From contig CALJES010000002.1 in the NCBI GenBank assembly GCA_938074205.1, positions 186,001 to 250,000 on the forward strand: a stretch of 64,000 nt of DNA, written 5' to 3'. Shown here piece by piece: positions 7,053-23,788 of this stretch. The notes under the pieces are model-generated. The model saw only the letters and a program-made list of their open reading frames with translations, made no database searches and had not been told where the DNA came from. The stretch's first letter is position 1. Each line of letters opens with the position of its first letter. Origin of the DNA: an uncultured bacterium. Its GTDB lineage: Bacteria > Armatimonadota > UBA5829. The translations under genes were made by a program, and so were the position numbers.

Positions 7053-8000
7053 ATGCGTGAACTGGTTGTAGGTTCCAGAGGAAGCTTGTTAGCGCTTGCT
7101 CAAACGAGAGAAGTAATTGAGCAATTGAGAAGTCGAGTCCCCAATGTCCGTGTTCGAACAGAGATCATTCAAACAGCTGCTGATAGAGATAAACATACGG
7201 CTTTGACTGAATTTGGTCGGACCGGTGTTTTCGTCAAGGAGATCGAGCAGGCTTTATTGGTGGGCAAAATCGACTTCGCAGTACATAGCGCGAAGGACGT
7301 GCCGTCCGAAATGGACCCCAAGCTTTGCATTGCAGCTTATCCTGCCAGAAGCAATCCGGCAGACGTGTTGGTTTCCAAAGTTGGTCCTTTACTCAATGCT
7401 CCAACTGGAGCTAGGATCGGCACCAGCAGTATTCGGCGGCGAGCTCAACTGCTGGCTCTTAGAGCAGACTTAACTCCCGTTAATGTGCGAGGAAATCTTG
7501 ATACACGCCTGGCTAAACTCCAAAGAGGCGACTGCGATGCCGTAGTCCTAGCGTATGCAGGGTTAGCCCGCCTGGGATTGAAAGATCTGGTAACTGAAGA
7601 GTTCGATCCAAACACTTGGCTTCCGGCTGCTGGTCAGGGAGCTCTTGCTGTACAGTGTAGAGCAGACGATGAAATTCGGGAGATCATCGCACAGATAGAT
7701 GACTGGACGACCAGGACCTGCGTAACTGCCGAGCGTGCCTTTGTCAGAAGTCTGCGCTCCGGCTGCCTTGCTCCGGTAGGGGTGTTAGCGACTATCGTTG
7801 ACGGTATGCTGAGACTTAGCGGTATGGTGGCTGCGCCAGATGGTTCAGCGGTAGTGCGATATTCTGAGTTTGGAGATTGTGATGAACCGGAATCGGTAGG
7901 AATTCGCTTAGCTGATCGCTTTTGGGATTCGCTGGCGCGAGAATTTCTCCCATGCAGGCCGGATAATTACAAGGGCGAGAACGACACGGTCGAGGACTAG
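7053..8000 (+). CDS. hemC: Hydroxymethylbilane synthase (porphobilinogen deaminase)
   Basis: HemC joins four porphobilinogen molecules into hydroxymethylbilane in the tetrapyrrole (haem, corrin) pathway in the cytoplasm. The 315-residue protein has the family start (ELVVGSRGSLLALAQTREV), catalytic D82 in HSAKDVPS, GTSSIRRRAQL, NVRGNLDTRLAKL, and the dipyrromethane-cofactor cysteine C238 in RSGCLAPVGV. ATG 7053 follows the promoter almost directly. nadB follows 7 bases after the stop, probably in one transcript. No other haem gene is adjacent. Confidence 0.97.
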   Translation: MRELVVGSRGSLLALAQTREVIEQLRSRVPNVRVRTEIIQTAADRDKHTALTEFGRTGVFVKEIEQALLVGKIDFAVHSAKDVPSEMDPKLCIAAYPARSNPADVLVSKVGPLLNAPTGARIGTSSIRRRAQLLALRADLTPVNVRGNLDTRLAKLQRGDCDAVVLAYAGLARLGLKDLVTEEFDPNTWLPAAGQGALAVQCRADDEIREIIAQIDDWTTRTCVTAERAFVRSLRSGCLAPVGVLATIVDGMLRLSGMVAAPDGSAVVRYSEFGDCDEPESVGIRLADRFWDSLAREFLPCRPDNYKGENDTVED

Positions 8001-20355: not shown

Positions 20356-20559
20356 TCAGCGCTGGCACTGGTGGAGCTCGCGTAGCTTGATCGGAGATAT
20401 CTGACCGCAGTTCTTACAAACAAAATGCGTGGCCATATTGCAGTCCGAGTCCCGGACCAGTCTTGCTAACCCAGGCGACAGACGCTTGAGTACCTTGAAA
20501 TCTCTTTCACTGATGCGGTAGCTCTGTCTGTCGCGCAACACGAGCTCCTTTACGTTCAT
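20356..20559 (-). CDS. Small zinc-ribbon-like protein
   Basis: A 67-residue basic protein. Its C-terminal third has CKNCGQISPIK...LHQC, a Cys-x2-Cys plus His/Cys arrangement typical of a small zinc knuckle; the N-terminal part (YRISERDFKVLKRLSPGLARLV) is helical. GGAGG lies just before the ATG at 20559, and the metallophosphoesterase gene follows 24 bases downstream in the same direction. The family is unknown to me; a nucleic-acid or protein-binding regulator is possible. Confidence 0.6.
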   Translation of the reverse strand: MNVKELVLRDRQSYRISERDFKVLKRLSPGLARLVRDSDCNMATHFVCKNCGQISPIKLRELHQCQR

Positions 20560-20685
20560 CAACCTCCGTCGGCCGGTAAAAGCTTAGCATCACTCGACCT
20601 TTGCGGGCAACTCTGCTTTGACTGCAGCTTGCCAACCGGAATCCGTCAAAAACAGCTTTGGCAAACGGTTTGGTACTCTAGCACA

Positions 20686-20722
20686 TAAAAAAGAGGCACG
20701 GACCTGCCCTCTCCGCACCTCT
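20686..20722 (-). terminator. Terminator of the surface-protein gene
   Basis: On the minus strand, AGAGGTGCGG pairs with CCGTGCCTCT (10 bp, two G-U pairs; 20713-20722 with 20692-20701) and is followed by TTTTTT. It lies 36 bases after the end of the surface-protein reading frames. Confidence 0.78.
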
Positions 20723-20758: not shown

Positions 20759-21319
20759 CTACGGTTTGGGAATCTCCGTGAACACAGGGCACAGGATCGT
20801 CCGCACAGTCTTGGTTACCTCGGTTTCGTCCTGCGTCTCAGTCCAAGTCTCGTAAGCTGCGATTCCATCTATCTGATAATACTTGCCGACTTCGATGTCG
20901 AACGGGAACTCAGTAGCTACTATTCTAATACCCTTAGCAAAAGGATCGCCGTATTGGGTTCTTCCGTCGATAAGCCCGCTGCCGTCGTCAATATAGATCA
21001 CCATCTCACCTTCAGGCGTTATCATAAGGGATGTGACTTCGCCCCAAATCCGCACGAACATTCCTACGTTGTCGGTGCCCCAACCGGCTTCGTCAACGCA
21101 CGAACCACCAACCAAAGCCTTTTGCGTCATCCCCAGAGGCTTTGCTTCCGCCATGTCGCTCGTCACCGTGAAGCTCGGGTTAGAAAGCACGGCACCAATA
21201 CTTTCACTGCGTCCTATGATCCCTGAAATGCCCGTCACAACAGCTCCAACCATAACGTTCGTCGGATCACCGCTCGGAATATACAGCCCGGAGTGGTCCT
21301 TGGTGTCCACATCTTGCAC
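20759..21319 (-). CDS. Surface protein, C-terminal fragment (OB-like module)
   Basis: Piece 3 of the broken gene, open from just after the in-frame TAG. Its content (NVGMFVRIWGEVTS...IYIDDGSGLIDG...EVGKYYQIDGIAAYE) matches the end of the 1295-residue surface protein (NVGMLITTWGKVTY...FWIDDGSNLIEG...NVGDYLSVTGIL), defining a shared C-terminal beta-rich module. A GTG follows the TAG directly, but no SD precedes it, so independent translation is doubtful. Confidence 0.5.
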   Translation of the reverse strand: MQDVDTKDHSGLYIPSGDPTNVMVGAVVTGISGIIGRSESIGAVLSNPSFTVTSDMAEAKPLGMTQKALVGGSCVDEAGWGTDNVGMFVRIWGEVTSLMITPEGEMVIYIDDGSGLIDGRTQYGDPFAKGIRIVATEFPFDIEVGKYYQIDGIAAYETWTETQDETEVTKTVRTILCPVFTEIPKP

Positions 21320-22681
21320 CTAGAATCCAAGCTGTGACCCGGTGATGTCTTTCCGAACTGCCGTGATCACAGCATTACCAATGATCACGCAGGGCTTAGT
21401 CTCACCGCCAGCTTTCGCTTCACTGATGGAAGCATAGGTTCCGCCGAATGGCGTCCACTCGCCAGGCGCATAGTCTCCAGCAGTGTTGACTGCAGTCCAA
21501 TCAAACTGCGCCTGTGTCGCCAGACCATAGCAGCCTTGTCCGATCACTATGCCGTCCGTCATCCAACCTGGGCTGTCCACAAGTGATTCGTCAACAGAAC
21601 CCGTGCCCGTTACCACCGGCGTAGGGCTTTCGTTGATATACAGCTTCCAAACAGCAGTCCTCGGATCACCTACAACCTGGTTCCGACCCGTGATGCGAAT
21701 GATTCGCCAGTCGTTGCTTGGCGGAATGGGAGTCGTCGTCCAGGTCAGGCTGTCCGTGCATACACCGGCTTGCTCCAGGAATACTCGGAATGCTGCTAGG
21801 CATTTGCCGGTTCCGTAGTCATCGGCAATATAGATGTTGCTCTTTTGAAGCTGGTTCCTGGCAACATAATCACCTGTTTCCCAAAGGATCCTGTGCGCCA
21901 AAACCAGTGTCACGCCTTGGTCTAGGCTGATGTTAGCTACTCGATGCAAACGCATGGTTTCGGATTTGATTACAGGCTGCCAATCATAAATGTCCCAAAC
22001 AGTATTGCCGCCGGTGCATCGACTGGTTAGGTACATTTCGATGAAACGCCATTCCATAGGTAACACTTCCACAGCGAACCCGTCATCCGGTGCGGGAGCA
22101 TTTCGCTGAAGTATGTTTTGCGTGGTATTACCTACCTGCCACGTTTCATCGAAGTGCCTGATATCAGTGCCTTCACCCTCACGGGTTACCGTGAATGCGG
22201 AGGCAGAACTCCAGTTGCTCCACCCTGCAGCGTTACCTACGCGCGCGAACGCATAGTACTGTGTTCCCGTATCCAAAAGCACACTACACGATGCGCCGTT
22301 GGACATCGTATGTATTTCGCCTGAGTCCCAAACAGGGGTGCCGGACCCATCTGGAGTCGTAGTGATCTTCGCCTGGATCTTGTTGTGCAGCTCTGCAGTA
22401 AAGACCACCGATGGTTTTGCACCGACAACAACACCTGCAGGCGAAGTAACAGTCGGAGCAGCAGGCGGGGTTGTGGTTACATAGAACCCACCATTGCCTT
22501 TGACTGAGAATCCAGTCCACACATTGCCATACTGTTCGTTGACGAAAACCCAAAGTTGTTGGTTTTCTGGAAGCTCTCCGGTTTGATGGCTTGTAGCCGT
22601 GCCGCTGATCGGACCGCTGTCGTAGACGATTGGTCCGCTCGGGTCGTCAACGCTGCATACTCTAACTTGATACCCGGTCAT
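21320..22681 (-). CDS. Surface protein, middle fragment (Fn3-like and lectin-like domains)
   Basis: Piece 2, 453 residues. It begins inside one fibronectin-III-like domain, then has a second one (PAAPTVTSPAGVVV...GWSNWSSASAFTVTREGEG, about 70-170) and a jelly-roll-like region (about 175-430). It ends at the TAG. The ATG overlaps the stop of piece 1 (ATGA), so re-initiation could express it, but without a signal peptide it could not be exported by Sec. Confidence 0.5.
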   Translation of the reverse strand: MTGYQVRVCSVDDPSGPIVYDSGPISGTATSHQTGELPENQQLWVFVNEQYGNVWTGFSVKGNGGFYVTTTPPAAPTVTSPAGVVVGAKPSVVFTAELHNKIQAKITTTPDGSGTPVWDSGEIHTMSNGASCSVLLDTGTQYYAFARVGNAAGWSNWSSASAFTVTREGEGTDIRHFDETWQVGNTTQNILQRNAPAPDDGFAVEVLPMEWRFIEMYLTSRCTGGNTVWDIYDWQPVIKSETMRLHRVANISLDQGVTLVLAHRILWETGDYVARNQLQKSNIYIADDYGTGKCLAAFRVFLEQAGVCTDSLTWTTTPIPPSNDWRIIRITGRNQVVGDPRTAVWKLYINESPTPVVTGTGSVDESLVDSPGWMTDGIVIGQGCYGLATQAQFDWTAVNTAGDYAPGEWTPFGGTYASISEAKAGGETKPCVIIGNAVITAVRKDITGSQLGF

Positions 22682-23475
22682 GCCTGTGCCGCGTTTGTCC
22701 AGCTCACGGTTGGTGTCTTGGTATTAACGAACGTGCCTCCGATCGGGAAGGTCACAACCGGCCTGGCAGTCGTACCGACTGCCAGGTCGTCGAGAAACAA
22801 AGTGTCGTTGGGGCAAAGCGGTGCCTTGACATAGTCTCTTACGTAGACCTTGTTTACTGCAAGCCCGGGTGTGGTGTAAGTCGACCAATTGAGGTTTCCG
22901 TCGACATAGAACTCGACTAATCCAGTGTCTGGATAGTAGTAGCAGTCGAAGTCGTGGTAGGTCCAGTCGTTCGGGTCAAAATCATACGACACGCCTTCTG
23001 CACCCGTAAAGCTCAACCGGGAAATCATCCTGTGGGTTCCACCGGTCCATCCGCAAATGGGGTTGTTGCTGGCGTCTATAAGGAAGATATTGGCGTGATC
23101 ATAAGGTTGCGTGGCTTCGTCAGACCAAGCTCTCCTGATCCGGAAATGCAGAATTTGCACGTTGCCTGCAGATATTGAAGCCCAATTATATTTAGTTTGT
23201 GCTCGGCTCGTGGCACCGGTCCCGCTAGAACCCTTCAGCCGAACGAACTGTGTGCCATTATATGCGCACCCAGCAGTGTTCTGAATTAGGTTCTCAGGTC
23301 CCGCGCCGTCAAAACCGTCTTGCCAATTCGTGGTGCACTGCCGCAGCCTAGTCCCAACTCCATAACTCTCAAAGTCATCCTGGAACCATATTGTCTGCGG
23401 AGGAACCGCAACGGCGGTGCTAGCGGCAATTAGCAGCACAAATATTGCTATGAGTATTGCCCTCAACATCCTCAT
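22678..23475 (-). CDS. Surface protein, N-terminal fragment with signal peptide
   Basis: Piece 1, 265 residues. A signal peptide (MRMLRAILIAIFVLLIAASTAVAV) precedes a concanavalin-like domain (WFQDDFESYGVGTRL...FYVDGNLNW...VYVRDYVKAPLCPNDTLFLDDLAVG, about 28-225) and the first strands of an Fn3-like domain. AGGAGG lies just before the ATG. If the frameshift is real, this truncated piece may still be secreted. Confidence 0.6.
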   Translation of the reverse strand: MRMLRAILIAIFVLLIAASTAVAVPPQTIWFQDDFESYGVGTRLRQCTTNWQDGFDGAGPENLIQNTAGCAYNGTQFVRLKGSSGTGATSRAQTKYNWASISAGNVQILHFRIRRAWSDEATQPYDHANIFLIDASNNPICGWTGGTHRMISRLSFTGAEGVSYDFDPNDWTYHDFDCYYYPDTGLVEFYVDGNLNWSTYTTPGLAVNKVYVRDYVKAPLCPNDTLFLDDLAVGTTARPVVTFPIGGTFVNTKTPTVSWTNAAQA

Positions 23476-23788
23476 TCCTCCTATTTCTCACGTGAATCGA
23501 AAGGTTTATAGGACCAAGCCGAAGGTTATTAGGTCCAAAACGCAATACGAAGTTGGCTCCTTTTTGTAAGCACTACCACCTCCCCCCACTATATTCGGCC
23601 ACTAGACGAAGCACAAAATCGAACAAACCACTCCAACCAGTCGCAGAATATCCTCAAACTGCGTGTTTGTCAAGCGCAGGTAGGGCTTGGTTTAAATGAT
23701 TGTTCCATATTTCCACGCGAGGGAGCAAGGCTTTTTTGCTTTAACAATGAGGTGAATGATGTGCAGTGTGCGGCTTGGTGGCTTACAA
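23476..23788. other. Intergenic region and leader before the surface-protein gene
   Basis: There is no gene here. It holds the minus-strand promoter at 23645-23673 and its leader, which includes a short inverted repeat (GGACC/GGTCC, about 23511-23536). The part between the promoter and cysK (23674-23788) shows only an A/T-rich imperfect repeat near 23727-23743. Confidence 0.5.
23645..23673 (-). promoter_or_regulatory. Strong promoter of the broken surface-protein gene
   Basis: On the minus strand TTGACA (23668-23673), a 17-base spacer and TATTCT (23645-23650). It gives a leader of about 160 bases. The core TTGACAAACACGCAGTT nearly repeats the promoter of the 1295-residue surface protein at 55667. 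Confidence 0.75.

Follow-up and report, generated by a model that had tools for sequence, protein, structure and literature searches.

Organization of the locus

The window, a 64-kb stretch of a 387-kb contig from an environmental Armatimonadota genome (3.02 Mb, 19 contigs), contains one protein distributed over three minus-strand ORFs (23475–22678, 22681–21320 and 21319–20759), as identified from the ORF list and the alignment with the corresponding gene of a sister species. Piece 1 (22678–23475; 265 aa) encodes a signal peptide, an N-terminal beta-rich domain (modelled with low confidence) and the start of a first Fn3-like domain, and ends at a TGA codon (22680–22678). Piece 2 (21320–22681; 453 aa) contains the remainder of this domain, a second Fn3-like domain and a second beta-rich domain, and is closed by an in-frame TAG (21322–21320). 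Piece 3 (20759–21319; 186 aa) encodes the C-terminal domain (beta-rich, probably of the OB-like type and bearing a DDGSG motif) and also terminates at a TAG (20761–20759). Pieces 2 and 3 share a common frame and are parted by the TAG alone, with piece 1 offset by one base.

A promoter-like site (TTGACA-17-TATTCT; 23645–23673, minus strand) has both hexamers identical in the sister species; the count of such sites was not by itself above that in shuffled sequences. Immediately upstream of the −35 hexamer lies a 25-bp block, GAAATATGGAACAATCATTTAAACC (23689–23713, minus strand), which is also identical in the sister and occurs, as a genome-wide motif search showed, only once in either genome; it is possibly a regulator site. 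Downstream, a terminator-like hairpin with a T run (20694–20709, minus strand) was within chance expectation, and its sequence is not conserved in the sister. No Rfam match was obtained around the gene. Between the gene and a phosphoesterase gene there is a small ORF (20356–20562; 68 aa, with CxxC and the sequence FVCKNCGQ), the DNA of which is 77% identical in the sister.

An intact orthologue in a sister species

The sister genome of the same genus (G002; Armatimonadota MAG A05DMB-I-24) carries, on contig C13 and between the same neighbours, a single uninterrupted ORF of 906 aa (L041:3342–6068 in JARYME010000111.1); it was the sole match in a scan of the named-genome collection. The three pieces align end to end with residues 1–262, 267–718 and 720–905 of this protein, confirming the proposal that they are parts of one protein. 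Relative to the sister gene, in which the frame is unshifted, the first lesion is a net one-base frame change (22678–22690, minus strand), at a site that is neither a homopolymer nor a slippery heptamer, and the second is the in-frame TAG (21320–21322, minus strand), in place of which the sister has a Trp. Beyond the one-base change, alignment gaps are confined to the signal-peptide region and have no net effect on the frame.

Divergence between the two genes is 20% at the DNA level (80% identity), with protein identities of 86%, 93% and 94% for pieces 1, 2 and 3, respectively, and of 93% for pieces 2 and 3 combined. Third codon positions account for 134/188, 221/262 and 73/84 of the differences in the three pieces, and NG86 estimates of dN were 0.10, 0.04 and 0.03, with dS between 1 and 2.5 and dN/dS of approximately 0.04, 0.02 and 0.03 (about 0.03 overall). 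A dN/dS this low at 20% divergence indicates that the gene was under selection until lately, and the excess of third-position differences and low dN relative to dS that its full length, including the part behind both lesions, was subject to purifying selection for nearly the whole time since the split.

Protein family and domain structure

Additional homologues were found in G002 (on contig C180), in G018 and, in several copies, in G016. All nine intact family members, counting the sister orthologue, consist of one ORF with no stop and no frame change, although some are incomplete at the ends of the compared stretch or of contigs. Neither lesion is present in any homologue found, and none of the homologues is divided into the three separate genes that would have indicated a real operon; the search for an intact gene proposed in the earlier note was answered by the 906-aa orthologue. 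The residue at the TAG position is a Trp in the orthologue and in the C180 paralogue and a Phe or Tyr in the other members. The suggestion that the TAG occupies an aromatic site therefore stands (W/F/Y in 9/9 members), but the sequence at 59.1 kb originally cited for it is a weak match (101 residues of the C-terminal domain, 29% identical), and the real evidence comes from the sister orthologue.

In a third congener (G001), the flanking genes are only 58 bp apart, with no trace of the broken gene between them, and the C180 paralogue of the sister was not found in the genome studied here; the family is therefore dispensable and turning over. In G016, which belongs to another family of the same order, five paralogues of this protein lie within about 20 kb (C224:11065–31566), a local expansion.

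An AlphaFold model of the sister protein had a mean pLDDT of 65, with good quality confined to the Fn3-like pair (residues about 240–430) and fair quality for the C-terminal domain. In this model, the frame change maps to a loop that joins two strands of Fn3-like domain 1, in agreement with the earlier placement of the shift inside such a domain, and the TAG falls inside a strand of the C-terminal domain. Pfam searches with the pieces and nine homologues identified no family covering the protein, the sister protein having no match, and no solved structure in the PDB matched the family by sequence. Whole-chain Foldseek matches to the sister model were rejected (TM <0.2), and at the domain level only generic Fn3 tandems were recovered. 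The C-terminal domain (20762–21319) matched no Pfam model above its cut-off; that it is probably OB-like is suggested by the arrangement of its strands and by a weak Pfam match to Stn1 (E 0.1). This DDGSG-motif domain has about 26 matches in the genome.

Lesions elsewhere in the genome

The frequency of comparable lesions was assessed by setting 504 kb of sequence from this genome against 594 kb from that of the sister; 113 sister ORFs of at least 150 aa (39,541 codons) were matched. Two kinds of apparent lesion were excluded: stops near the 5′ end of a matched frame, which were assumed to precede the start codon, and the disruption in the second half of a 193-residue sister ORF (L052:6833–7411 vs L048:798–1368), the coding status of which is doubtful. 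Across the approximately 38,000 other codons (about 114 kb), internal lesions were found nowhere except at one further locus (G000:C1:47968–50627; L054:7968–10627). It comprises two neighbouring genes for secreted proteins, one LamG-like with a PEP-CTERM motif and the other endonuclease/phosphatase-like with a Big_7 domain, which are clearly decayed, with five internal stops (three TAA, one TAG and one TGA) and one frameshift, and both of which are whole in the sister (L096:2079–4830). A TGA at 7983, just ahead of where the first gene probably starts, was left out of this count. If errors occurred uniformly, at the 95% upper limit set by the lesion-free 114 kb or so, two of them would fall in the broken gene with a probability of about 0.002, indicating that lesions gather in particular genes, as expected for pseudogenes.

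Alternative explanations

Consensus or assembly errors, with the gene whole in the organism, would be compatible with the MAG-like nature of the genome (19 contigs, completeness 97.9%, contamination 1.1%) and with a coding sequence that otherwise looks selected, but the clean comparison over the rest of the matched coding sequence, the location of the frame change outside any homopolymer and the fact that the other disrupted locus likewise encodes secreted proteins make this possibility, raised in the earlier note, unlikely. Passage of both lesions in translation, by amber suppression or readthrough together with ribosomal frameshifting, to yield the full protein would account for the low dN/dS, the intact promoter and the good conservation of pieces 2 and 3. 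However, TAG is the commonest terminal stop among the 115 matched genes whose end could be read (TAG 49, TGA 37, TAA 29) and also terminates the broken gene's own reading frame, and RF1 is present (529 bits). A search by pattern only for tRNAs with a CTA anticodon, rather than a full tRNA census, gave nine places and no amber suppressor: two of these places lie within ARAGORN tRNAs, identified as Arg(tct) and Glu(ctc), and the others correspond to no tRNA. Nor does the frame break resemble programmed frameshifting, as no slippery heptamer occurs at the site or within 100 bases of it, and the homologues are unbroken. Suppression or recoding, considered at the outset, is contradicted by these observations and appears highly improbable.

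Bacterial surface proteins are frequently phase-variable, and a reversible loss of this one had also been envisaged. However, no simple repeat accompanies the frame change to drive switching, the in-frame TAG is a point mutation, and the second decayed locus, with at least six lesions, illustrates irreversible decay; of all the explanations considered, this is the one to which we attach the least credence. A genuine operon of three translationally coupled proteins would be in keeping with the stop-start junctions, an ATGA overlap at 22681–22678 and a TAG followed by a GTG at 21319, coupling at such junctions having been reported for ABC transporters and others (Antonov et al. 2013, PMC3711429). 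Against this, the ATG and GTG lie in frame inside the intact gene of the sister, and neither is preceded by a Shine-Dalgarno sequence clearly recognizable by eye. A signal peptide is found on neither piece 2 nor piece 3, an Fn3 domain is halved by the first break and no split homologue was found; three functional proteins seem as improbable as recoding. Even jointly, all forms of recoding, coupling and phase variation seem very unlikely.

Timing of the probable inactivation

With the closest paralogue (C180 of G002) as the outgroup, 34 amino-acid differences between the two orthologues were informative: the outgroup residue agreed with the sister at 28 sites and with the broken gene at six, and the 28 sites are distributed along the whole gene. 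For three flanking genes, with G001 as the outgroup, the corresponding values were 47 and 66, a significantly different ratio (28:6 vs 47:66, Fisher P=3×10−5). With seven more distant family members as outgroups, there was no excess on the branch of this species, and deviations at conserved columns were equal (56 vs 56). The concentration of changes on this lineage, seen with the nearest outgroup only, is suggestive of a brief period of relaxed selection. If the entire excess reflected neutral drift, the time free of selection would amount, as a rough estimate, to a few per cent of the branch.

Discussion

The interrupted gene, which encoded a secreted protein that is dispensable and turns over fast, is very probably a recent pseudogene; an assembly error or a strain mixture is a less probable source of the lesions, which are known from one assembly. 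The pseudogene explanation, already among those listed in the earlier note, is supported by the intact syntenic orthologue, the absence of the lesions from homologues, strong past purifying selection and normal use of TAG. The original product would have been a secreted multidomain surface protein, with a signal peptide, a beta-rich domain, two Fn3-like domains, a further beta-rich domain and a C-terminal OB-like domain, and its gene would have lost its function through a nonsense mutation and a frame change of one base, both acquired in the lineage of this species, very recently relative to the split from the sister. The promoter probably still fires, in which case at most a truncated secreted fragment, corresponding to piece 1, would be produced, and the locus would be expected to be lost in time. 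The case is one of ordinary gene decay and involves no new mode of gene reading.

Small frameshifts and premature stops are common causes of young pseudogenes in Salmonella, where a single inactivating mutation was found in 346 of 378 pseudogenes (Kuo and Ochman 2010, PMC2916853). The locus described here resembles these young pseudogenes in combining a small frameshift and a premature stop in an otherwise selected gene that is intact in a near relative, but belongs to an environmental member of the Armatimonadota rather than a host-associated pathogen and carries two lesions instead of the usual one, a number that counts against a recent pseudogene. It also resembles the pseudogene class of genes with frame transitions (PMC3711429) in having a frame transition without a recoding motif, and differs in that the frame change occurs in no homologue and is accompanied by a nonsense mutation. 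The domain order is that of the secreted Fn3/OB-like proteins of Armatimonadota (the sister gene and those of G002, G016 and G018), all of which are intact, whereas the window gene is broken.

An apparent oddity, for which automatic annotation would list three hypothetical proteins, is thereby resolved as ordinary recent gene loss. More speculatively, and with little confidence on our part, the lineage may be shedding its set of secreted Fn3/OB-domain proteins in a shift of lifestyle, the broken gene capturing the initial stage of that process; less likely still, the pieces may continue to be made separately through coupling at their stop-start junctions. The locus also draws attention to a family of multidomain secreted proteins in Armatimonadota that has no name and turns over rapidly, the gene being whole, broken or absent across three species.
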